Shown here in pieces: positions 39,506-53,129 of a stretch of 64,000 bases of DNA (position 1 is its first letter; each line of letters opens with the position of its first letter). The DNA is from Bacteroidota bacterium (GTDB lineage: Bacteria; Bacteroidota; Ignavibacteria; UBA10030; UBA6906), in the NCBI GenBank assembly GCA_030835135.1, contig JAUQWO010000006.1, forward strand, positions 1 through 64,000. The letters run 5' to 3'. Position numbers and translations under genes: made by a program. The notes under the pieces are model-generated. The model did not search any database. It worked only from the letters and a program-made list of their open reading frames with translations, and was not told the origin of the DNA.

Positions 39506-40738
39506 TTATTCCGCGGTCGGGGACATATTCAACAATTGCTGGAAGCGCCGCTTGTTGTTCGCTGCCACCATGGCGTTGTCCAGCGAGATCTTCTTGTTCG
39601 TATATAACCGCTTCAGGTCCTGCTCCAGCGTGATCATCCCGATGTCGCCCGACTCGGCCATCATCTGGTAGATCTCGCCCGTGTTGTTGTTCTTGATCGC
39701 GGCCCGGACCGACGGGATCATGACGAGCACCTCTTTTGCCAGAACGAGTTTCCCCTCCAGGCTCGGTACCAGCTTCTGCGACATCACGCAACTCAGCGTG
39801 TCGGCCAGACGGATACGCACACGCTCCTGTTCGATCGGCGGCACCTCGCCAATGATACGGTCGATGGTCTCGACCGCCGACGCCGTATGCAGCGTCGAAA
39901 ACACCTTGTGGCCGGAGTCCGTGATCTCCAGCGCTGTCATGATGGTGTCCGGATCCCTCATCTCACCGATCGTGATGATGTCCGGGTCCTGCCGCAGGGC
40001 CTGGATGGCCCCATCCTTGAACGACAGCACATCACGGCCCACCTCACGGTGACGGATGATGCAGCGGTCAGGCGTGTGCACGTACTCCACAGGCGACGCA
40101 ATGATCACGATGTGGCCATCCACCGTGTGATTGTTCGCATCGATGATGCTGTCCAGCGTGGTGCTCTTGCCGGAGCCGGTGATTCCGGTGATCAACGTCA
40201 ATCCCTGCGTCGTGTGCGCCAGACTCAGCACCCGCGTCACGTTCGGGTGGAATTCCAGGGCCTTGTACGGGCGGATCACATTGTTGATCGCGCGCATGTT
40301 CATGGCCAGATGGTCCAGGTCGAAACAGACGTTGCACCGGAACCGGAACATCCTGTCGTCCTCGATCACGCTGTACGAGAGGTCCAGGTTGCGGTTCTCG
40401 TACAGGAACAGACGCTGCCGCTCGATGAGCACGCTCTGAATCAGCACACTGCATTCGTCCAGGGTGAATGTGCCCAGCTCCTTGGCCGGCCGCTTTTCGC
40501 CGTAGATGCGGTACCAGATGTATTTGGATGTGCCATACCCCCCCAGGTCGATGTCGGAGGCGTTGATCCTCGACATCCGCATGAGGAGGCTGTCCATGAG
40601 CTTCCGGAGCGCACTGCGTTCTGCAGGCGACTGGCGTGACACCAGGTCGCCAATGAGCATTTGACGTTCCATTCCCGGAGCGGTGTCCGGGACATTCGCT
40701 GCGATCTCCTGCAACATGCGTACAGCTGTTTCGATCAT
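39506..40738 (-). CDS. PilT-family retraction-type ATPase with altered Asp box
   Basis: A 410-residue hexameric motor ATPase. Walker A GITGSGKST (185-193), Walker B IITIGEMRD with E259, and His box STLHTAS (H284) are intact. The Asp box, normally IEDPIE, is here IIASPVEY (A214, S215 in place of Glu-Asp), so the acidic pair is lost. The N-terminus is about 60 residues longer than a standard PilT and lacks any recognised extra domain. It lies just after a strong terminator and before the PilM-PilN gene, so it starts a second transcription unit. ATG 40738 has GGAG 8 nt upstream. Its fit to PilT versus PilU is not settled. Confidence 0.88.
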   Translation of the reverse strand: MIETAVRMLQEIAANVPDTAPGMERQMLIGDLVSRQSPAERSALRKLMDSLLMRMSRINASDIDLGGYGTSKYIWYRIYGEKRPAKELGTFTLDECSVLIQSVLIERQRLFLYENRNLDLSYSVIEDDRMFRFRCNVCFDLDHLAMNMRAINNVIRPYKALEFHPNVTRVLSLAHTTQGLTLITGITGSGKSTTLDSIIDANNHTVDGHIVIIASPVEYVHTPDRCIIRHREVGRDVLSFKDGAIQALRQDPDIITIGEMRDPDTIMTALEITDSGHKVFSTLHTASAVETIDRIIGEVPPIEQERVRIRLADTLSCVMSQKLVPSLEGKLVLAKEVLVMIPSVRAAIKNNNTGEIYQMMAESGDIGMITLEQDLKRLYTNKKISLDNAMVAANNKRRFQQLLNMSPTAE

Positions 40739-40801
40739 TACAGCCACTCCCCGTAGTTCTGCACAATTGACAAACTCAATAGACGTGCCACAGATCACAC
40801 C

Positions 40802-40884: not shown

Positions 40885-42135
40885 CTATTCGTACCACGCA
40901 AGGATCTCGTAGGCTTTCGTTGTAGGAAAGTACGGCGGGGCTGAGGTGCGAAACCGCTCGTCAAACCGCAGATTCACCTTCAATCCCTTGGTGATCGAGG
41001 AGTTCGTTGTCGCATAGATATCATTCACGGTCCACCCACCATAGGTGTACAGCGTACCGAGGTTCCGCGTTGCCAGATTCTCCACCTCGATGGAGGCAGC
41101 ATAGCTGAAGAGCGCCGCCATGACCGTGAAATTCGGCCCGTGTCCGGTGGCCGTATTGTCCGCGATCGTGATCTTCTGATTGGCCACGATCCCGAGCATG
41201 TCGGTGGAGGCGGGGTTCGTCCGGGGATCCGAGTTGTACGTGATGTTGTCGTCGATGACGACCTGTCCGCGTGAGGTGCTCTGGGTGTCGATCGCCCCGA
41301 TCGTGAACCGGCCTTTGACGGTCCCTTTCACATGCAACTTGCCGCTACTGTTGTTGAGGACGATGGCCCCGTTCGGTGCAAGGGCTGTCGCCAGCACGGT
41401 CGTATCGGGCCCTGCGGGGCCACGCTTATAGGTGATGGAATCACCTTTGAAGTGCAGATACAGGTCGTCGTTCCCGGTGAAACTCTTCCCCCCCGCCGAT
41501 GCCTTTTCACGGAGTTTGGAATAGTCCCGGTTCAGCGGAATACTTACGCCGGTCTCGACCCCCGCATTGAAGATCGGGTGCCCGCTCCACGACGTGCTGT
41601 CCACGTTGTTCTTGCACGTAGCCTTGCCCCCGAAGTACGGATACCCGTGGGTCCGCAGGGTCCCCTCCACGTGTGTCGGCCCGAAAATGGAGTCGTACGT
41701 TGCCCAGTACACGGCCGAGCCGGCTGCCCCGGCGTACATCGCAAATTTCGCGAAATTGCTCGGGCGCAGGATCGCGATCACCGTCGCCGTACTGTCACGG
41801 AAGGTCGCCACGGACCGCAGCGTCAACCGCCGATCACCCGTCAGAGGGTCCACACTGGTCGTGGAATCCACCGTCACCACGAACGACCCGCCGTTGAACT
41901 GCACGGGCGTGGTGTATCCGTTGAACCAGGCATTGCCATTGATGAGCGGGGGATACAGGAAGATGTAGTTTGCCGCCATGTTGGCGCCGGAGATCGCGAT
42001 GTTCCGCGCCGTCTCCTGGTCGTAATAGGTGATGGCATTGTCATAGGCCTGCACGCTGATGTCCGACATGAGCAGTCCGCTCATCAGGAGAAGCGCACTG
42101 TAGCCCATCACAAGTATGAGAGAGGCTTTGCCCAT
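40885..42135 (-). CDS. large MG-start minor-pilin-like protein (PilX/DUF4900-like)
   Basis: A 416-residue protein that begins MGKASLILVMGYSALLLMSGLLM, split here, so Met-Gly is followed by a hydrophobic helix. The rest is a beta-rich extracellular domain with SFVVTVDSTTSVDPLTGDRRLTLRSVATF, several Gly/Asn-rich strands and a Cys-poor core. The layout resembles the PilX-N/DUF4900 class of large minor pilins, but similarity is weak and from impression only. It is the last gene before the internal terminator and follows two smaller MG-start genes (spacings 13 and 21 bp). A pilus-tip or priming role is inferred. Confidence 0.65.
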   Translation of the reverse strand: MGKASLILVMGYSALLLMSGLLMSDISVQAYDNAITYYDQETARNIAISGANMAANYIFLYPPLINGNAWFNGYTTPVQFNGGSFVVTVDSTTSVDPLTGDRRLTLRSVATFRDSTATVIAILRPSNFAKFAMYAGAAGSAVYWATYDSIFGPTHVEGTLRTHGYPYFGGKATCKNNVDSTSWSGHPIFNAGVETGVSIPLNRDYSKLREKASAGGKSFTGNDDLYLHFKGDSITYKRGPAGPDTTVLATALAPNGAIVLNNSSGKLHVKGTVKGRFTIGAIDTQSTSRGQVVIDDNITYNSDPRTNPASTDMLGIVANQKITIADNTATGHGPNFTVMAALFSYAASIEVENLATRNLGTLYTYGGWTVNDIYATTNSSITKGLKVNLRFDERFRTSAPPYFPTTKAYEILAWYE

Positions 42136-42148
42136 CGCTCATGTTCCC

Positions 42149-42793
42149 CTAGCGGTTTCGGTAATTGCGGGATGACAACCGGAGTTGCTGCCAGAACGCT
42201 GATGAATACTGCGTATTGATCGGCGCCGTCTCCACGAGTTCGCCGGCAACGACATTCTCCACGATCAGGGAGATCTGGATCGTCTGGATCCGTTGAAGAT
42301 TCGCCGCGGTCACGGGGACGCCGAGTTCGTTCCCCTGGCCATCGTAATAGCGGAACTTGAACGAGGTCACGCCGAGATTGGAGCCCTTCGCGGCATCATT
42401 GTTCACGACCCGGTACAGCAGCCGGTCGCGCGGGTTCATGGTCCCCGCAAGCTCCGAGGTCGGGCCGAGATAATAGTAGATACTGTCCACCACACCGTCC
42501 GGCCCGGCCCCGGTCAGATTCACGTCCGTCAGGAACTTCAACCGCATGCTGTCCGCAAGGATGATCGCCCGCGTCGGATCGGGAATATTGTTCGGCTCCA
42601 TGCAGAAACCGATCTTCCGGAAATCATACTCCAGGAGGCGTGTCACTTCCACGAGGTTCTCCTGCACCAGAAGTTCCCCCCCGTAGGTCTGCATGTTCTC
42701 GGAATTCGCCACGCTGATGCGTATCGACGTGAGGAGGAGCCACCCGAAGAGAACGATGGAACCGATGAGATCGATGATGACCTGGGAACCCAT
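42149..42793 (-). CDS. MG-start minor-pilin-like protein, 214 residues
   Basis: A 214-residue protein starting MGSQVIIDLIGSIVLFGWLLL, that is Met-Gly and then a long hydrophobic helix, with no classical prepilin leader and no Glu at position 5 after the Gly. An amphipathic helix (SENMQTYGGELLVQENLVEVTRLLEYDF) and a beta-rich end (FKFRYYDGQGNELGVPVTAANLQRIQTIQISLIVE) follow, the pattern of PilW/minor pseudopilins. It sits between two other MG-start genes. The assignment as a minor pilin is based on topology and context. Confidence 0.65.
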   Translation of the reverse strand: MGSQVIIDLIGSIVLFGWLLLTSIRISVANSENMQTYGGELLVQENLVEVTRLLEYDFRKIGFCMEPNNIPDPTRAIILADSMRLKFLTDVNLTGAGPDGVVDSIYYYLGPTSELAGTMNPRDRLLYRVVNNDAAKGSNLGVTSFKFRYYDGQGNELGVPVTAANLQRIQTIQISLIVENVVAGELVETAPINTQYSSAFWQQLRLSSRNYRNR

Positions 42794-42814
42794 GGGCGAA
42801 CCCGCTCTCTGTGG

Positions 42815-43318
42815 CTATCGGAAATACCAGTAACTATAGACGGTCTGGAACGTCAACGTGTCGCGCATGAACGGGCTCGACACCCACACCCGGAGACGCT
42901 TATGATAGGTCCGGGATGCCGAGGTGACGACCGCATTCGATGAGATCGTGACATAATCCACGGAGTCCCGGATCAGATAGGTTGCCGACCGGAAATAGAC
43001 GCTGTCGCCGGTGATCGTCTTCGAGAACCCGTTATAGTCATCGAAATCGTCGAAGGTCGCTTCTGCCTCCGTACCTTCCTTCCCGAGCGTGGAGCTCAGC
43101 GACGAGACGCTGTTGACGTCGCTGGACACCGTTTTCTCGTCGAAAGCCTTCCCCAGGGCCTGCTCCATCTGGGAGACGCCGAGCGAACTCGCCATGATCA
43201 CGTACTCCGTGGTCTCCACCGACGATCCGCTGTCCAGGGTGGTGTTGTTCATCATCAGCAACACGCTCCCCAGCAGCGCCATCGCCAGCACACTCAACAG
43301 CATTTGTCCAAGTCCCAT
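42815..43318 (-). CDS. MG-start minor-pilin-like protein, 167 residues
   Basis: A 167-residue protein starting MGLGQMLLSVLAMALLGSVLL. The anchor helix follows the initial Met-Gly directly. Next is a Ser/Thr/Asp-rich region and a C-terminal beta segment (RSATYLIRDSVDYVTISSNAVVT; RVWVSSPFMRDTLTFQT). No recognised domain. It starts only 3 bp after the PilB stop, so it is co-transcribed with pilB, and is followed 21 bp later by the 214-residue MG-start gene. The function is inferred as a minor pilin or pseudopilin. Confidence 0.62.
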   Translation of the reverse strand: MGLGQMLLSVLAMALLGSVLLMMNNTTLDSGSSVETTEYVIMASSLGVSQMEQALGKAFDEKTVSSDVNSVSSLSSTLGKEGTEAEATFDDFDDYNGFSKTITGDSVYFRSATYLIRDSVDYVTISSNAVVTSASRTYHKRLRVWVSSPFMRDTLTFQTVYSYWYFR

Positions 43319-43321
43319 GGC

Positions 43322-45115
43322 TCAGTCGTCCGTTGTCGCTGCTGCGATCTCTTCAAGTGTGGTCTGCCCGGCGATGATCCGCTCGATGCCCGACCGCCGG
43401 AGCGTCCACATCCCGTCTTTCATTGCCTGCTCGCGGATCTTGTCTTCATCGATATCGTTGCCCGACTTCGCGATCATCGCCCGGATCTCGCGCGAGAAGA
43501 ACAGCGCTTCGTGAATGGCGGCGCGCCCCTTGTAGCCGGAATTGCACCGTTCACACCCCTGGGCCTCGCAGATCGTGCCATTCTGAAGATCCGCCTCGGC
43601 GAACCCGAAGGACGTGTAGACGTCATGGTCGATCTCATTCGGCGCCAGCTGCTTCTTGCAATGCGGGCAGAGCGTCCGGACCAGTCGCTGCGCCACGATG
43701 ATGTTGATCGCATACGCGATCAGGAACGGCTCGATGCCCATCTTGTACAGACGGGAGACCGCGCTGGGCGCATCGTTGGTGTGCAGGGTCGAGAAGGTAA
43801 GGTGGCCCGTGTTCGCGAGCTTGATCGCGATCTCCGCCGTACTCTTGTCACGCATCTCACCCACAAGCACGATATCCGGGTCGTGACGCAGGATGCCGCG
43901 GATGGCCTGGTCGAAGTTCATCTTGGGGCCGATACGAAGCTGCCGCGCGCCCTTGATGATGTACTCCACCGGGTCCTCCACGGTCAGCACGTTCACCGTC
44001 GGATCGATCACCTGGTGCAAGGCCGCGATCAGCGTCGTACTCTTGCCGCTTCCTGTCGGACCGGTCAGAATGACGATCCCCTGGGGCTTGGCTATGGCCC
44101 TGTTGAAGAAGTCCTTCGCCGGACCCTGCAAACCGAGCTTGTTCAGGTCGGTGATGACCTTCCGGTCGTCCAGGACACGGATGACGATACTCTCGTACTT
44201 GTGCCGGAACTCGATCCCCACGATCGGCATGATGGACACGCGGAACCGGATCATGTGATCGTCGATCAGGCGCTGGATGAACCCGTCCTGCGACATCTCA
44301 CGTTCGAAGCGGTCGACGTTCTTGGAACGGTCTTTCACCACCGCGGCAACGGCCTCGGGCATCGTCTTCTCCTGCACGTGCCAGAGCTTCAGATTGCCGT
44401 CGTTCCGGAACCAGAATTCGGTCCGGTTCCCTTCCTTGGCGATGATATGAATATCGGACGATCCCTGGCGGACGGCCTCGACGAGGGCACCTTCCACCAG
44501 GTTGACGAGGGCGCTCTTGCTGATCTCGGCTTCGAGGGCCTCTTCATCGACCAGCGCATCGTCCTCTTCCTCCTTCACCTGGATCCCGACCTGGGAATCC
44601 TCGAGGAGCTTCAGGAACTCGTTCTCCGGCGGGATCACCTGCTCGAGCAGGCTCTGGAGGTCCTTCAGGCGGCAATACGCCACCTCATACTTCTTGGCCG
44701 CAAATTCGCGCGCGATGATCGGGATCCGCCGGTCCGTCGGGTCCGCGGAAATGATGATCAGCTTGTCCGGCTGCTTCTCATCGTACTTCAGGGGAAGCAT
44801 GCGCGACTGAACGACCATGTCACGGACGTTCTGCGCGAGACCGTCGACGAACTTCTTGATGAAGTCGATCCGGGTCCTGTCGATCACTTCATCGGCGAGG
44901 TAGATCTCCCGGAAGGCGTACAGGTCCGCGACCTCGCGGAACACGGCATCATGGTCGGCACCGAAGTCATTGACCAGGATCTGTCCGAGATTACGACGGT
45001 TCTTCTTGTCCTCAGAGTCTTTGACCCGCAGAGACTTTTCGAGCGTCTCGTAATCGATCACGCCCTTCTTGAGGAGGGCGAAACCGATCTTGTCCGTGAT
45101 ATCGATGGGCGGCAT
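43322..45115 (-). CDS. PilB/GspE-type assembly ATPase
   Basis: A 597-residue assembly motor. N-terminal MshEN/GspE_N-like region (FALLKKGVIDYETLEKSL, LGQILVNDFG). Walker A GPTGSGKST (352-360), Asp box TVEDPVEY (E380, D381), Walker B IVLVGEMRD (E420), His box STLHTND (H445), and zinc cysteines C483/C486 and C521/C524 are all intact, so it should be the active extension ATPase. Starts at ATG 45115, nine bases after the PilC gene stop. The N-terminus is acidic between residues 180 and 197, unlike a standard PilB. It is the intact paralogue of the degenerate copy at 47782-49590. Confidence 0.95.
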   Translation of the reverse strand: MPPIDITDKIGFALLKKGVIDYETLEKSLRVKDSEDKKNRRNLGQILVNDFGADHDAVFREVADLYAFREIYLADEVIDRTRIDFIKKFVDGLAQNVRDMVVQSRMLPLKYDEKQPDKLIIISADPTDRRIPIIAREFAAKKYEVAYCRLKDLQSLLEQVIPPENEFLKLLEDSQVGIQVKEEEDDALVDEEALEAEISKSALVNLVEGALVEAVRQGSSDIHIIAKEGNRTEFWFRNDGNLKLWHVQEKTMPEAVAAVVKDRSKNVDRFEREMSQDGFIQRLIDDHMIRFRVSIMPIVGIEFRHKYESIVIRVLDDRKVITDLNKLGLQGPAKDFFNRAIAKPQGIVILTGPTGSGKSTTLIAALHQVIDPTVNVLTVEDPVEYIIKGARQLRIGPKMNFDQAIRGILRHDPDIVLVGEMRDKSTAEIAIKLANTGHLTFSTLHTNDAPSAVSRLYKMGIEPFLIAYAINIIVAQRLVRTLCPHCKKQLAPNEIDHDVYTSFGFAEADLQNGTICEAQGCERCNSGYKGRAAIHEALFFSREIRAMIAKSGNDIDEDKIREQAMKDGMWTLRRSGIERIIAGQTTLEEIAAATTDD

Positions 45116-45124
45116 GGGCTTCTG

Positions 45125-46504
45125 TTATGTTAACGGGCGATCCACATGCAATTCGAATACCTGTCCGGCCGCGGGGTTCTTCGGCCTGATCGTAGCGGTC
45201 TCGGACGACACGATCGTCAGCGCCGTCAACACGATCATGATGATCATCGAGATCCAGAGCTGGATGAACTCGATGACGTTCTTCATCTTGTACGTCGTCT
45301 CTTTCTCGTAGTACTCCGCAAGTTGCAGCGCCGTGGTCTTGACCGTGCCGGTCTCCGCGCCGGAGTGGAAGCGGGAGACGGCGGTCTTCGTGAACACCCC
45401 GGTGGCTTCGAACGCCTCGGTGATACCGGCGCCCTTCTGGACCATGAGGGGGATCGCGATCGCCTTGATGCGCGCTTCCATGTACTTGTTGCCGCACGCC
45501 TCGGCGGCCATGCGGATGACCTCGATGTTCTCGCCCGAGCCGCTGTACAGGGCGTAGAAGACGCGGCAGAAGATCTCGATGGAGGTCTTATGCAGGAGCT
45601 GACCGATGACCGGGATGCTCCAGATGTACTGATCGCGCAACAGACGGCCCTTCTCGGTGGAGAGCCAGCGGACGAACAGCACCGTCGGGATCGTGAAGCC
45701 CAGGATGAGCCACAGCATGTTGGAGACCAGGAAGTCCGAGATCTGCAATGTCGTCTTGGTCATCGGCGGCAGATCGATCTTGAACTTCACGAACAGCTTG
45801 GCGGTGGCCGGGAAGATGTATCCGACATAGTAGATCACTGCACCGAACAGGACGGCGAGGGTGATGAGGGGCGTGATCAGGGCACTCTTCAGGTTCTTCT
45901 TGAATTCCGTCTGGCGCTCGAGGAACTTGGCGGTGCTCTCATAGATCTCGGCCATATTACCGCTCTTGGAGGCCAGCCCCAGCATGTGAGCGGCGAAGCG
46001 CCCGAGCACGGCCTCGTGCTTCACGAAGGCCTTCTCACTGTCGCGCCCCTGCTTCAATTCGATGTTGATGTCCTTGATCGCCTCGCGGAGGGTCCTGTTC
46101 TCGATGTCGTTGATCAGGAGCGCGAGGATCTCGTTGAACGGCAGCTTCTGCCGGATCAGGTCGGCGCTGACGCGCACGAACGTGACGATCTCCGTGGACG
46201 GCGGTTTGGCCTTGAATTCGAAGAGGCGTTTCTGCACGCTGATGACGCGGTAGCCCATCTTCGTGAGCGCTTCTTCGACCTCGGCGCGGGTGAAGGCCTT
46301 CTGTTCGCCCATGACGGGCTTCTCCGCACCGCGTTGGACCTTGTACATCCAGGTGGAGCGCGGGATCACATGGAGAAGTTTGAACTTGCGCGCCGTGGCA
46401 AGCTGTCCTGCCTTCTGTTTGGCGGACCGGATCGACTCCGCCTCGAGCAGACCCTGCACCGGCTTCCCGGCAAGCGTGATACCCTCTATCCTGAATTCTG
46501 GCAT
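45125..46504 (-). CDS. PilC/GspF-type inner-membrane platform protein
   Basis: A 459-residue platform protein. An N-terminal segment of about 100 residues (residues RIEGITLAGKPVQGLLEAES) precedes two GspF domains with FVRVSADLIRQKLPFNEILALL and IFCRVFYALYSGSGENIEVIRMAAEA, and hydrophobic helices at about 215 (LITLAVLFGAVIYYVGYIF), 275 and 420. It couples PilB to pilin extraction. ATG 46504 follows AGGTGG by 6 nt. The PilB gene begins 9 bp after its stop. An upstream GTG in frame would add three residues. Confidence 0.92.
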   Translation of the reverse strand: MPEFRIEGITLAGKPVQGLLEAESIRSAKQKAGQLATARKFKLLHVIPRSTWMYKVQRGAEKPVMGEQKAFTRAEVEEALTKMGYRVISVQKRLFEFKAKPPSTEIVTFVRVSADLIRQKLPFNEILALLINDIENRTLREAIKDINIELKQGRDSEKAFVKHEAVLGRFAAHMLGLASKSGNMAEIYESTAKFLERQTEFKKNLKSALITPLITLAVLFGAVIYYVGYIFPATAKLFVKFKIDLPPMTKTTLQISDFLVSNMLWLILGFTIPTVLFVRWLSTEKGRLLRDQYIWSIPVIGQLLHKTSIEIFCRVFYALYSGSGENIEVIRMAAEACGNKYMEARIKAIAIPLMVQKGAGITEAFEATGVFTKTAVSRFHSGAETGTVKTTALQLAEYYEKETTYKMKNVIEFIQLWISMIIMIVLTALTIVSSETATIRPKNPAAGQVFELHVDRPLT

Positions 46505-46658
46505 GCGTGCCACCTGTCAGTGTAATGAACTTCGTAAACGCGAAAAGGCACCTCTCCCTGGCGCTGATCTGTCGTCTCCCGGCTCCCACTCTCTGCCCTG
46601 GTGCCGACCACGTTTGGAAAAGGACCTCACCAACCCCAGCGGTTCTCCGTGCAGCCCG

Positions 46659-47045
46659 CTAGTTCAATTCCGAGACAAGGATCGAATCGGCACGCACCTG
46701 AACGGCCACCTTCACCGGATGGGCGCGATCATACCCGATCTCGATCCCGACGCCCTCGATCGTCACCTGGGTGCCGGTCGCGCCGGACACCGTGAACGAC
46801 CCGTTCTGATTCGCATCGGCTGTCGAGGTGAGAGTGAATCCCACAAAGGAATTGCCGCCACCACCGAGACACCGGGGCTTCTTCTGGTACACCTGCGCCT
46901 TCGAGGCATAGGCGGTCAGGTCATTGGCAATGGCATCACGATTGGCAGCAGCGGCACCGTCACCGAACATGATGACCCCGATGGAGATCATCAGTCCGAT
47001 CATCAGCACCCCTACTATCAGCAACAACATCTGCTGACTGCCCAT
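46659..47045 (-). CDS. MG-start pilin-like protein (second)
   Basis: A 128-residue small protein starting MGSQQMLLLIVGVLMIGLMI, a Met-Gly followed at once by a hydrophobic helix. Next is the shared block ANRDAIANDLTAYASKAQVY and a glycine-rich bend (CLGGGGNSF), then beta strands ending VRADSILVSELN. It is clearly paralogous to the 136-residue protein one gene upstream (shared ANRDA.xNDL, LGGGGN, VTIEGVGxE). It resembles a major pilin in size but lacks the standard leader and Glu5. There is no assignment to a known pilin family with confidence. Confidence 0.7.
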   Translation of the reverse strand: MGSQQMLLLIVGVLMIGLMISIGVIMFGDGAAAANRDAIANDLTAYASKAQVYQKKPRCLGGGGNSFVGFTLTSTADANQNGSFTVSGATGTQVTIEGVGIEIGYDRAHPVKVAVQVRADSILVSELN

Positions 47046-47135: not shown

Positions 47136-47546
47136 TTAGTGCACGATCACGACGCTATCCGACCGCGTATTCGACACATGGATCTCCATGGTCACGTAGT
47201 TGGTCCCATCCACCATTTCCGTACCGACGCCCTGGAGCACCACACCCGTGGCATTACCGGCCGACGTGATGGAGTACGTGCCGTTGGCATTGGTTTCACG
47301 GTTCGTCAGCTTGCGCAGACCGGCGGCATCAGCAGTCAGGCCGGTGAAGTTGTTGCCACCACCACCGAGGGCTGTCGGGCGACGATAGAACTGCTGCGCA
47401 CGGGCCGCAAGGTTGACCAGGTCATTCGTGACCGCATCACGGTTCGCGCTGATCGCGTTGTCCGTGAACATCGTGATACCAACCGCCACTGCGATACCGA
47501 CAACGATGACGCCGAGGATGATCAGAAGAAGCTGCTGCTGTCCCAT
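47136..47546 (-). CDS. MG-start pilin-like protein (first; possible major pilin)
   Basis: A 136-residue protein beginning MGQQQLLLIILGVIVVGIAV, so the Gly-2 is followed by three Gln and a 20-residue hydrophobic helix. A helix with ANRDAVTNDLVNLAARAQQFY and a bend LGGGGNNF follow, then a beta domain ending VTMEIHVSNTRSDSVVIVH. It is first of the two small pilin-like genes and has a good AAGGAG site. It may be the major subunit. No Glu5 and no processed leader of the usual length are present, so processing, if it occurs, would be after Gly-2. Family membership is not established. Confidence 0.72.
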   Translation of the reverse strand: MGQQQLLLIILGVIVVGIAVAVGITMFTDNAISANRDAVTNDLVNLAARAQQFYRRPTALGGGGNNFTGLTADAAGLRKLTNRETNANGTYSITSAGNATGVVLQGVGTEMVDGTNYVTMEIHVSNTRSDSVVIVH

Positions 47547-47781: not shown

Positions 47782-49590
47782 TCACACGGTGAATGCAAGG
47801 AGTTCCTCGACCGTTGTCGAGCCCGCGACGAACAGATCCTGCGCCTGCCGCGACATGGTGACCAATCCGCCCACCTCCGCTGCCGCCTCGATCTGAGAGT
47901 CATCCGCATGCCCCGCTTCCTGCACGAGTACGTGCCGTACCTCCTGCGTCATCGCGAATGCCTCGTAGAGCATCCATCGACTGCTATACCCTCCCTTGCA
48001 ATCGATGCACCCCACCGCACGGTAGGTCACCGGCGGTTCCACCTTCACCCGCAATCGTTCGAGCTGCTCCATCTGCAGATTCTCGGGGTACGGCTTGCGG
48101 CACCGCGGACACAACAAGCGCAGCGACTGCTGGGCGACGATCCCCGTGACGGCTTCGGATGCGCGGAATGGAGACCCACACAGATCGATCAGATGCGTGA
48201 GTGCCTTGGCTGCACTCCGGACCGGGAGGGTAGCAAGGACCATGTGGCCGATATTGGCCAACCGCACCGCGATCTCCGCCCTGCCCGGCGTCGTAAGATC
48301 ACCGAGCATGATGATGTCAGGGTCGTGATCGGTGATGATCGCTAACGCGTCATCGGCGCTCAGCCGTGGATTCAATTTGACCTGCCGGGCTCCGTCGATG
48401 ATGAACTGCGTGCGGTCCTGGATGACGAGCGCGTTCACGGCATTCTTTATCAACGCACGGAGCACTGCAACCTGTGTTGATGCCGCGCCGTCACGTGCAC
48501 TCCCGGCGAAGACCAACAACCCATGCGACGCCGCCATCGCGTTGCGGATCACGCGGTCCACATGCGGGTCACACCCGAGGCCGTCGAGACCGGGGAGGAT
48601 GTTCGCATCGCGGAAGATGCGCAGCACGATCGACTCGAAGCGCGATTGACTGTCGCGCGTCAGGAGTGGCAGCACGGAGACCGCGATGCGCACCGGAACA
48701 TTCTCCACCGTGCGTTCGATCGTCCCCTGCTGCGCGGCCTGCCGTTCGTACCGGTCGATCCCGATCGACCGCTCCTTCAGCGCTGTCGCGACCGCTTCGC
48801 ACCGGACATCATCGATCGATGCCCAGAGGGCGAGATGGCCATCGAGACGGAACATGACCTCGGTCTTCCGCGAACCGCGCGGCGTGATGTGCACCTCCGA
48901 AGCGTTCGAGCGGATCGCATCGAGGATCACGTTGTCGATCTGCACGTTGATCTTCGCGCGCGCGATCTCCCGGTCCATCAGCGACTCGAAGTCACCTTCC
49001 GAGACCTTGGCGGCCGCGGTCGCGGCCGGATCGGCAGTGTCCTTGGCATTGCTGGAGGAGACCTGACGCCAGTACTCGGCCCATTCAGCCTCCTTCATGT
49101 AGCAGATCTCGAACCGCTTATACGGAAAAACCCTTGCAAATTCATGTATTTCGCGGTCTGCCGGGTTCGGCGTGACGAGCACGACCTTGTCGGGCTGGTT
49201 CTCCGCGATGTCAAACGGGAGGAGCTTCAGCTTGAGCAGCTGCTGGAAGGTCGCCTCCGGCAGGCTCCGCACGATCTTGTGCACGTCAGAGAGCAGGAGC
49301 CGGCGCACGCTCCTGTCGAGCAGCGTGACGGTGCGGAACGCATAGTATTGGGCCACGGCCTGGCGCAGCGGATCGGCGGGAACATTCAGGACCTGTTCGA
49401 GGATCTCAACGAGTCCGCGCTTGTCCTTCTCGTTCTTCCGTTTCCACTCGGTGGCATCGACCGCATGCTGCTTGCTGATGACGCCGCTGCGCGCGAGGTG
49501 CTCGAGCAGGGACGTCAGCGGTGGCGCTGCACCGGCAGGCGCCGATCGCGGGACCGGCGCATTTTCTACCGTCTCGAACGGAGCGTCCAT
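47782..49590 (-). CDS. degenerate PilB/GspE-like protein, ATPase motifs lost
   Basis: A protein of about 602 residues collinear with the active PilB downstream, but with its catalytic motifs gone. Walker A, normally GPTGSGKST, is GSARDGAAST (Lys to Ala); Asp box VEDPVEY is IQDRTQF; Walker B GEMRD is GDLTT; His box STLHTND is ATLPVRS. The zinc pairs CPRC (about 494-497) and CIDC (about 528-531) are retained. It therefore cannot hydrolyse ATP like PilB and is more likely a regulator or an assembly subunit. ATG 49590 overlaps the REC stop by one base (TGATG); a GTG at 49593 overlaps by four. It is co-translated with the receiver protein. Confidence 0.85.
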   Translation of the reverse strand: MDAPFETVENAPVPRSAPAGAAPPLTSLLEHLARSGVISKQHAVDATEWKRKNEKDKRGLVEILEQVLNVPADPLRQAVAQYYAFRTVTLLDRSVRRLLLSDVHKIVRSLPEATFQQLLKLKLLPFDIAENQPDKVVLVTPNPADREIHEFARVFPYKRFEICYMKEAEWAEYWRQVSSSNAKDTADPAATAAAKVSEGDFESLMDREIARAKINVQIDNVILDAIRSNASEVHITPRGSRKTEVMFRLDGHLALWASIDDVRCEAVATALKERSIGIDRYERQAAQQGTIERTVENVPVRIAVSVLPLLTRDSQSRFESIVLRIFRDANILPGLDGLGCDPHVDRVIRNAMAASHGLLVFAGSARDGAASTQVAVLRALIKNAVNALVIQDRTQFIIDGARQVKLNPRLSADDALAIITDHDPDIIMLGDLTTPGRAEIAVRLANIGHMVLATLPVRSAAKALTHLIDLCGSPFRASEAVTGIVAQQSLRLLCPRCRKPYPENLQMEQLERLRVKVEPPVTYRAVGCIDCKGGYSSRWMLYEAFAMTQEVRHVLVQEAGHADDSQIEAAAEVGGLVTMSRQAQDLFVAGSTTVEELLAFTV

Positions 49591-49970
49591 CACTGCGCCT
49601 CGGGTTCGATCGTGCGGCGGAGCGAGTCGATCAATGTGAGGACCTTGTCGATCGGTGTGGTCTTGCTGAAAAAGAAATCACGGTCCGGATCCACGACGAG
49701 GTTGCGTGTGCTCTCGTCGTCGTACCCGGACATGAAGATGAAGGGGATGTCGGGAGCGTCCGTGAACTCGCGGACGTAGTCATGGAACCGGACGCCGTCG
49801 AGCGTCGGCATGAAGACGTCAGAGATGATCACATCGGCCTTGTCGAATTCAAGGGCCTCGCGCGCTTGTTTGCCATTCTCTGCAAGGAGGACCTCATAAC
49901 CCGAATCACGGAGAACTTCCCCCATGACATTGAGGTAGCCTCGTTCGTCGTCCACAAGCAGGATCTTCAT
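49590..49970 (-). CDS. single-domain response regulator (REC only)
   Basis: A 126-residue receiver with no output domain. Acid pocket VDDE near residues 6-9, phosphoacceptor Asp in DVIISDVFMP (about D51), Ser/Thr in FMSGYD and the conserved Lys in FFSKTT. It overlaps the degenerate PilB gene, so the two are probably made in fixed proportion. A standalone REC with a PilB-like partner suggests that phosphorylation gates pilus assembly. No cognate kinase is adjacent; the hybrid kinases elsewhere in the window are candidates. It is the first gene of the pilus-like cluster. No strong promoter was recognised in the 230 bp before it. Confidence 0.88.
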   Translation of the reverse strand: MKILLVDDERGYLNVMGEVLRDSGYEVLLAENGKQAREALEFDKADVIISDVFMPTLDGVRFHDYVREFTDAPDIPFIFMSGYDDESTRNLVVDPDRDFFFSKTTPIDKVLTLIDSLRRTIEPEAQ

Positions 49971-50202
49971 GCCTTCTCACCTTTGCTGGTACATAGACCA
50001 CTATCATTGCTGGCGAAATTATCGCAATAACTGCGCCAGAATCCGGAGTGAAAATGGCTGGAAATCGATGGAAGAGCGAAATTGAGGAGAAGGGGGGAAA
50101 TGGAGCGCGAAAACGCGTACATTGACTGTGGTTGCGGCGGGACTTCGTTCCGATGAAGGACATCGGAACTCAGCCTGCGAATGCAGCGGGATGGTGTCCT
50201 CG

Positions 50203-50276
50203 TGGGCCCTGCAGGACTTGAACCTGCGACCGACAGATTATGAGTCTGCTGCTCTAACCAACTGAGCTAAGGGCCC
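50203..50276 (-). tRNA. tRNA-Ile2 (anticodon CAT, lysidine type)
   Basis: A 74-nt minus-strand tRNA with acceptor GGGCCCT/AGGGCCC (50270-50276 and 50204-50210) and anticodon loop CTCATAA reading CAT. The body (CTTAGCTCAGTTGGTTAGAGC, GACTCATAATC, GGTTCAAGTCC) matches the minor Ile-CAU tRNA rather than initiator or elongator Met. CCA is not encoded. It needs a tRNA(Ile)-lysidine synthetase elsewhere. Confidence 0.88.
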
Positions 50277-50312
50277 GGGTGTCTCGTGATGCAGGGAAGG
50301 CATCACGGACAA

Positions 50313-50341
50313 AATATACGAAACCATGGGGTCTACGGCAA
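50313..50341 (-). promoter_or_regulatory. promoter of tRNA-Ile2
   Basis: On the minus strand TTGCCG (50336-50341), 17 bp, TATATT (50313-50318), 37 bp before the tRNA start. A hairpin CGTGATGC/GCATCACG (50285-50307) lies in the leader. Confidence 0.7.
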
Positions 50342-50513
50342 GGACGGAAAAATCGCCAAGAAAGTGGCGGGCATGTCCGCTCATGCCCTCCGGCACAACA
50401 TCCGGACTCCCGGTGCGATATATTGGAACCACAGCGTTACACGGCTGCAACGCACTACCTGCGGGAGATCCGCCCCGCTCCAGAGATCACGAGGACACAC
50501 TCAGGACCATATC

Positions 50514-50693
50514 ATGAAAAAGGCCACTCACGCCGATGCCGTGCTTATCGCACGCTCCATGAACATGAAAGTTGATGTCGTATGGGACATCATCGGGGGG
50601 ATGAATTATTCGTCCTATTCCGAGCTGGTGATGGCGGTGCTCATCTGCCTCAAGCCACTCCCCATCGAGCGTCTCAGCTCCCCGGGCAAATGA
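50514..50693 (+). CDS. small protein, paralogue A (59 residues)
   Basis: Starts MKKATHADAVLIARSMNMKVDVVWDIIGG and runs on for 30 more residues. It has no transmembrane segment or signal. It is paralogous to the 61-residue protein one gene downstream: both share RATHA-A/D-A-V, a helix with VARAL/IARSM, (V)VW-x-I/V, a Gly turn and a YT/YS-x-L-V helix. AGGA lies about 7 nt before the ATG, and a TATATT (50419-50424) upstream could be a -10. The predicted fold is a small helical bundle, perhaps a nucleic-acid- or protein-binding domain. No family recognised. Confidence 0.65.
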   Translation: MKKATHADAVLIARSMNMKVDVVWDIIGGMNYSSYSELVMAVLICLKPLPIERLSSPGK

Positions 50694-50731
50694 TACATTC
50701 TCGTCGCGCTAATAACGGAGATAGGGTTGTG

Positions 50732-50917
50732 ATGGACCATCGTAGAGCCACCCATGCCGAAGCCGTGTATGTCGCCCGCGCCCTGAACCTGCCCATCGAA
50801 ACGGTCTGGCAGGTCGTGCAGGGACGGCCCTATGCAACATACACGGACCTTGAACTCGTCGTCCACGCTGCCGCCCTGCGCCGCCCAACGGACCAGCAAC
50901 GGTCGGCATCACGCTGA
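50732..50917 (+). CDS. small protein, paralogue B (61 residues)
   Basis: Begins MDHRRATHAEAVYVARALNLPIETVWQ and continues for about 34 residues. Paralogous to the preceding 59-residue protein by shared motifs and equal length. The tail is basic (PTDQQRSASR), whereas paralogue A has a shorter tail. GGAG is 11 nt before ATG 50732; an in-frame GTG at 50729 has better spacing (8 nt). The two genes lie 38 bp apart in the same direction and are probably co-expressed. Function unknown. Confidence 0.65.
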   Translation: MDHRRATHAEAVYVARALNLPIETVWQVVQGRPYATYTDLELVVHAAALRRPTDQQRSASR

Positions 50918-52022: not shown

Positions 52023-53129
52023 TTATCTGGAACGTGTACTGGCTTTTTCATACTCGCGCTGCAACAGCGCCATGGCCTCTTCCCGGCGATCGTATAGGCG
52101 CTTGAGACGCCGCTTCTTCTTCCGGGCAAGAGCATACGACGTGAGGATCGGCATCGCCACCGTGGAATCCAGGTAGACCACGACGGTATCCGGCAACATC
52201 GACGGGTCGACCTTCCCCCAGCTCACGGCTTCCGACGGCGTTGCACCGGAAAGCCCCCCGGTGTCAGGCCGCGCGTCCGTGATCTGCAGAAAATAATCGT
52301 GCCCCTTTTCTTTGATGTTGAGCACTTCCTGGATCTGCGGTTCGGTCTGCAACATGAAATTCTTCGGCGAACCGCCCCCGAAGATCAGCACGCCACTCTT
52401 GCCACCCCTGCGTTTCGCATCCAGCACGAGCGCCGCGGTCTCATTGACGTCCCGCAGGACATCGATCTGTACGCCGAACCCCGCAAGGGATGCCTCGGCA
52501 ATGTTCATCCCGATGGAGCTGTCGCCAGGGGACGAGGTGTACACCGGCACGCCACTGCGGTATGCCGCCGCAAGTATGCTCGCGTTCTTCACGCCAAGCA
52601 CGCGTTCACGCTCCGCAACGTATTTGCCCATCAAATAGTGCATTTCGGCGGTACCCATCCGGCGCTGAAATTCGGGATTGCGCATGACCGTCCGGAAGAA
52701 GTCGTCGGTGCTCAAAAGCACCTCATAATCGAAGAGAATGTCGTAGATCCGGATGACCCCCTCTTTCCGCAACAGGCGGTCATCCACGAACGGCGTTCCC
52801 TTGTGAAGGGTCCGGCCGATCGAGAAATGCGTGTCATGATACAGATTCGCACCAGTACTGACGATCCAATCCACGAATCCGTTCTCGATGAGCGGCACGA
52901 CACACGACCCGCCCAGACCAGCAGGCGTCAATGCACCCGTCAGACTCATTCCAACCGTCACGTCCTTCTCAAGCATGCGACCAGTGAACAATTGGCATGC
53001 TTCGCCGAGACGACCCGCATTGTAGGCCTGAAAATACTGCTCGACCAGAACGGTTACGGGCACATTGGCCGGGATCGGCTTCGTCGCAATTGCCTTCCCT
53101 TTAAGGAATCTACTCTTATGGGCTTTCAT
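52023..53129 (-). CDS. deoxyhypusine synthase family protein
   Basis: A 368-residue NAD-dependent enzyme of the DHS family, which moves an aminobutyl group from spermidine. Conserved features: [15 protein letters not shown] near residue 60, [31 protein letters not shown], and the Lys-containing SWGKVDP (catalytic lysine of human DHS lies in the equivalent SWGK). Bacteria lack eIF5A, so the acceptor is unknown; bacterial homologues can be homospermidine-type synthases. The gene has its own predicted promoter and is followed 30 bp later by the H1-like gene. Confidence 0.88.

Follow-up and report, generated by a model that had tools for sequence, protein, structure and literature searches.

Control of the pilus extension motor PilB by receiver (REC) proteins is already known as such, from EmvR and PixE. 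EmvR, a single-domain receiver of Xanthomonas oryzae, binds PilB and inhibits the motor's ATPase, an effect that requires intact phospho-site residues (D15, D59 and T87; PMC11973254). In Synechocystis, the CheY-like PATAN-REC regulator PixE acts on the extension motor and has been proposed to bind PilB1 (PMC7690835). Motors without a working ATPase have also been described. PilZ docks on the N-domain of Xanthomonas citri PilB, and the PilB-PilZ-FimX complex still assembles with a PilB mutant that is dead in both Walker motifs, A and B (PMC8389850). Walker-A-dead PilB (K327A) of Myxococcus xanthus supports signalling despite impaired nucleotide binding (PMC5544727), and ATPase-dead PilT of Vibrio cholerae (PilT[WA]) remains a needed partner of its active paralogue PilU (PMC6762196). 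TfpB of Acinetobacter baylyi is a second PilB-type extension ATPase beside PilB in one pilus system (PMC8213720). A 2024 review of PilB control lists as open questions the reason for multiple PilB homologues in bacteria and the possible cooperation of extension motors (PMC11656802).

We analyzed a 64,000-nucleotide stretch of an Ignavibacteria genome (the window), which holds a pilus operon headed by a standalone REC gene and a second PilB-type gene, here called pilB2:

49590..49970, minus strand: standalone REC with intact phosphoacceptor residues, in the same position in 16 of 16 PilB2-carrying genomes
47782..49593, minus strand: PilB2, a predicted catalytically dead pseudo-ATPase of PilB/GspE fold, 603 aa, GTG start (homology, motifs, fold)
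49066..49521, minus strand: ND0/ND1 (MshEN-like) N-terminal docking domain of PilB2, residues 25-176 (structure match; the most constrained part of the dead copies)
47136..47546, minus strand: pilA1, pilin-like (position and conserved synteny)
46659..47045, minus strand: pilA2, pilin-like (position and conserved synteny)
45125..46513, minus strand: PilC platform protein (Pfam T2SSF)
43322..45115, minus strand: PilB1, intact extension ATPase (homology, motifs)
39506..40798, minus strand: PilT-like retraction ATPase (homology)

A sequence-only reading of this DNA had placed pilB2 at 47782-49590 and proposed an overlap with the REC gene. The locus was right but the coding sequence is 3 nt longer, reaching 49593, and the overlap of its start with REC is 4 nt. 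Across 21 genomes of the Ignavibacteria family, our comparison set, the operon order is REC, PilB2, pilA1, pilA2, PilC, PilB1, (minor pilins), PilT, PilM, PilO.

Several neighbouring genes deserve mention in their own right. The PilT-like ATPase has an Asp box reading A-S-P-V-E-Y versus the usual E-D-P-x-E, while its Walker A, Walker B and His box are intact; the form [AS]SP[IV]EY is kept in every family orthologue examined and in two outgroups of the order, and we regard the product as a conserved atypical retraction ATPase. A minor-pilin-like trio lies between PilB1 and PilT on the minus strand (40885-43318; genes at 42815-43318, 42149-42793 and 40885-42135). It is present in genera g1, g6, g7 and g9 and in one outgroup of the order, and missing at the PilB1-PilT site in g2, g3, g5, g8 and g10-g13; its 416-aa member is without an NCBIfam match. 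Just upstream of the REC gene is tRNA-Met(CAT) (50202-50276, minus strand), followed at 50286-50917 (plus strand) by two short ORFs that overlap and encode products with a related segment in common (ATHADAVLIARSMNMKVDVVWDII / ATHAEAVYVARALNLPIETVWQVV). The gene at 52023-53129 (minus strand) encodes a homospermidine biosynthesis protein (deoxyhypusine synthase-like), exceeding the cut-off of NCBIfam NF001980.

By descent and fold PilB2 belongs with PilB. It is collinear with PilB1, as the sequence-only reading had stated (30% identity over 581 aa, E 3e-101), and Pfam T2SSE matches it at 7e-50. An AlphaFold2 model (mean pLDDT 82) has the N2D and RecA-like core fold of PilB/GspE (PilT-like secretion ATPases) and superposes on PilB of Geobacter metallireducens (5tsh; Z 39.2, rmsd 2.7, 376 residues, 29% identity). 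PilB and PilF crystal structures match it across the entire N2D-core unit (Z 39). PilB2 falls short of the equivalog cut-offs for both PilB (TIGR02538; 193 versus 676 bits) and TfpB (NF053534; 174 versus 850 bits).

The four catalytic motifs occupy their canonical places in sequence alignments and are degenerate, and the zinc site is kept (all by alignment):

48475..48504, minus strand: degenerate Walker A, GSARDGAAST, residues 364-373
48403..48423, minus strand: degenerate Asp box, IQDRTQF, residues 391-397
48289..48324, minus strand: degenerate Walker B, DPDIIMLGDLTT, residues 424-435, with GDLTT ending at 435
48214..48234, minus strand: degenerate His box, ATLPVRS, residues 454-460
47998..48111, minus strand: zinc tetracysteine, C495, C498, C529 and C532

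The losses of the Walker A Lys and the His-box His stand as first quoted, and both zinc Cys pairs (495/498 and 529/532) are retained, as in the PilB/GspE clade. Two motifs are less destroyed than had been claimed. The Asp box has lost its Glu but keeps the Asp itself (E-D to Q-D), and the Walker B change from Glu to Asp is real but conservative, and confined to this copy, its sister G001 having Glu and G002 Ala. The counterpart of PilB1 R292, a candidate arginine finger, is also lost. A shifted or hidden P-loop, which would have overturned the claim of a dead ATPase, was looked for and not found: GK[ST] occurs nowhere in the 603 residues, and the structural superposition reveals no displaced Walker A. 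PilB2 thus has the fold and lacks the Walker A, catalytic Glu, Asp-box Glu, His box and arginine fingers that the family requires, which makes it a PilB/GspE homologue by descent and fold and, as predicted from these residues, not an ATPase by catalysis. Positions invariant in 17 intact sequences changed proportionately more inside the four motifs than outside them in all seven dead copies tested (p<0.02 in five of the seven).

The N-terminal domain resembles known docking domains. Residues 25-182 of the model match MshEN (5htl; Z 12.4, rmsd 3.1, 136 residues), the PilF GSPII-B domain and the PilZ-bound N-domain of Xanthomonas PilB (7lko; Z 11.2), all at Z 11-12. MshEN N-domains bind c-di-GMP through the motif RLGxx(L/V/I)2xxG.... 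Binding of c-di-GMP by PilB2 was considered and rejected, since even at best 6 of the 11 fixed positions of this motif mismatch.

In each of the 16 genomes that carry PilB2, REC is the gene immediately ahead of it. Seven copies in five genera are intact and have a P-loop (G009, G011, G012, G013, G014, G017, G019), counting G013, whose Walker B part lies in a contig gap. Eight copies in four genera are dead, all without a P-loop (G000, G001, G002, G004, G007, G008, G015, G018). For G005 only the N-terminal part of PilB2 is assembled; the tree groups it with the dead copies. G020, where the contig is broken at the locus, was left out of the presence/absence judgement. PilB2 is gone from genera g2, g5 and g9. 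The first two retain REC (G003 and G006, with spacers of 338 and 291 nt in place of PilB2), and g9 (G010, G016) has neither gene at the strength of our models. With PilB2 lost in the former and both genes in the latter, the module is dispensable.

Conservation of the pair, which the sequence-only reading had proposed to check, is seen in the dead copies of four genera, always next to REC. The idea that the REC link is special to the dead state fails: five sister genera have REC beside a catalytically intact PilB2, so the pairing predates the loss of catalysis. Nor can REC act solely through the dead protein, because it stays without PilB2 in two genera. It would then have another target, most likely PilB1 or PilC. 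REC itself is a CheY-like receiver with D7, D8, D51, S81 and K103 invariant in 14 sequences.

The REC model gave no comparably strong match outside the family among 197 genomes of the class, and a direct scan of genome contigs with the PilB2 protein gave no match. Outgroup operons of the order (L088, L089) have PilB1 and neither REC nor PilB2. Order-level PilB paralogues examined as possible pairs outside the family are intact and without this REC. Paralogues of this REC, likewise standalone and of its RFH-type subfamily, occur at L183:5712-6718 (G012:C16), G017:C6 and L182:5500-5934 (G000:C45), some RFH-type paralogues being in tandem arrays; no histidine kinase was recognised beside the nearest paralogues at the loci examined.

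Phylogeny sets PilB2, intact and dead, apart from PilB1 and other paralogues with support 100/100, and the dead copies form a single clade (100/100). The PilB1 tree agrees, with the corresponding genera forming a clade at 98/97. Placing G007, the most divergent dead copy, among the intact ones is rejected (p-AU 0.003). The P-loop Lys is replaced by Ala, Arg or Val across the dead copies, and erosion is uneven: the His-box His survives in G004 and the g7 copies, the catalytic Glu in G001 and the candidate arginine finger in G007 alone. Because the motifs are present in the intact sisters and in every outgroup PilB examined, the simplest history suggested by the alignments is one loss of the P-loop Lys, then further erosion to varying degrees. 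In this family PilB2 is an ancient second ATPase of PilB type, whose gene directly follows that for REC where the pilus operon begins; judging from its residues, it lost the means of ATP binding and hydrolysis on the line to one subclade.

Selection was assessed with a codon maximum likelihood model on the PilB2 tree, because synonymous saturation made YN00 dN/dS unusable for most pairs. Omega is 0.10 in both domains for the dead g1 crown, 0.026 (N-terminus) and 0.053 (core) for the dead g3+g7 crown, and 0.033 (N-terminus) and 0.026 (core) for intact copies; synonymous sites are close to saturation, which makes the exact values approximate but leaves the rejection of neutrality firm. A fit with omega = 1 is worse by 81-315 lnL units and is rejected, and with it a simple pseudogene, one of the outcomes named as refuting the earlier proposal of selective retention. 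The g1 copies are relaxed in both domains. In g3+g7 omega of the core is about twice that of intact copies (delta lnL 5.1), a relaxation not seen in the N-terminus (0.2).

These data also bear on slow redundancy decay, in which PilB2 is jobless in the subclade, on its way out, and persists for the present solely because selection removes misfolded or poisonous versions. The PilB2-free genera g2, g5 and g9 would be its end point, and the relaxed omega of g1, the faster divergence of PilB2 than of PilB1, and short C-terminal deletions in the dead copies G002 and G018 (real or assembly errors) fit it as well. Yet omega stays at about 0.03-0.10 across several genera and the reading frames are open throughout the four dead-copy genera despite near-saturating synonymous divergence; the frame break in G008 is an assembly gap of Ns. 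The dead state is also old, all Lys losses falling within one clade. Finally, the N-terminal domain is conserved as well as in intact copies (pairwise identity 56% in dead lineages, 51% in intact), while the catalytic half falls to about 34-35% from 85%. PilB1 of the dead lineages has the ordinary pattern (81% N-terminal domain, 91% catalytic half). This inversion points to the docking end as the part that selection holds most in dead PilB2, and we consider redundancy decay unlikely. By codon substitution and identity, dead PilB2 is kept under purifying selection in most of the genera concerned, most strongly on the N-terminal docking domain.

The reading we prefer, at a probability of about one half, is that an ancestral REC-linked second extension motor became, once, a pseudo-motor that serves as a regulator-docking partner of PilB1/PilC. 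PilB2 would be a subunit of the pilus base on which regulators dock: its ND0/ND1 domain would take part in REC signalling, and its retained motor-like core would sit on PilC or against PilB1, arguably through a ring interface that the residues suggest is still there. It may thereby change how often PilB1 drives extension, as a brake or licence switchable by phosphorylation. That REC binds, that it is phosphorylated and which way the effect runs are our inference. More tentatively, and with some doubt, we propose a natural pseudo-motor: a REC-linked PilB that has abandoned ATP hydrolysis and works on the active PilB1/PilC base as a brake or a licence under phospho-control.

The core might instead enter mixed rings, dead PilB2 and PilB1 forming hetero-hexamers that tune step number or force, with REC acting separately on PilB1 or some other target. 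Dead PilB2 still has the N2D/core fold and many of the invariant N2D residues, PilB1 and PilB2 share one operon, and cross-interactions of pilus ATPases are reported (PMC11656802). But PilB2 and PilB1 are only 30% identical, the arginine finger is gone except in G007, N2D and core of the dead copies are less conserved than the N-domain, and hetero-hexamers have been argued against for PilT/PilU (PMC6762196). Mixed rings seem improbable to us. We think it very unlikely that the role of PilB2 lies elsewhere than in pilus extension, as a signalling protein that works without nucleotide and controls polysaccharide or similar output. Myxococcus offers the precedent (PMC5544727) and the operon link to REC would suit it, but no polysaccharide genes were noticed in the operon and PilB2 is always encoded inside the pilus operon.

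Taken together, EmvR, PixE, X. citri PilB, Myxococcus PilB and PilT/PilU make a REC-linked pseudo-motor modulating PilB1 at PilC the most economical account. None is the same arrangement. The partner of EmvR is an active PilB, with no paralogue or dead motor (PMC11973254); PixE has a PATAN domain and its motor is active (PMC7690835); PilB K327A is an engineered mutant rather than a natural conserved paralogue (PMC5544727); and PilT[WA], also engineered, concerns retraction motors (PMC6762196). TfpB likely gives a picture of the ancestral intact PilB2, by analogy, although it genetically supports extension and no REC link is described for it (PMC8213720).

The claim that no REC and dead-PilB pair had been described holds for the conserved dead PilB and not for REC-PilB regulation, which has the precedents above. 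Our literature search for pilus systems with a pseudo-ATPase or a dead PilB found none described, which is weak evidence of absence because most subscription journals lay outside its coverage. We know of no earlier case of a conserved dead extension ATPase; if true, this one is apparently the first of its kind. Within one conserved operon the family covers all states of REC-PilB2 (an active motor, a dead one, REC alone, neither gene), so the non-catalytic and enzymatic roles of an extension motor should be separable here by comparison and part swapping.
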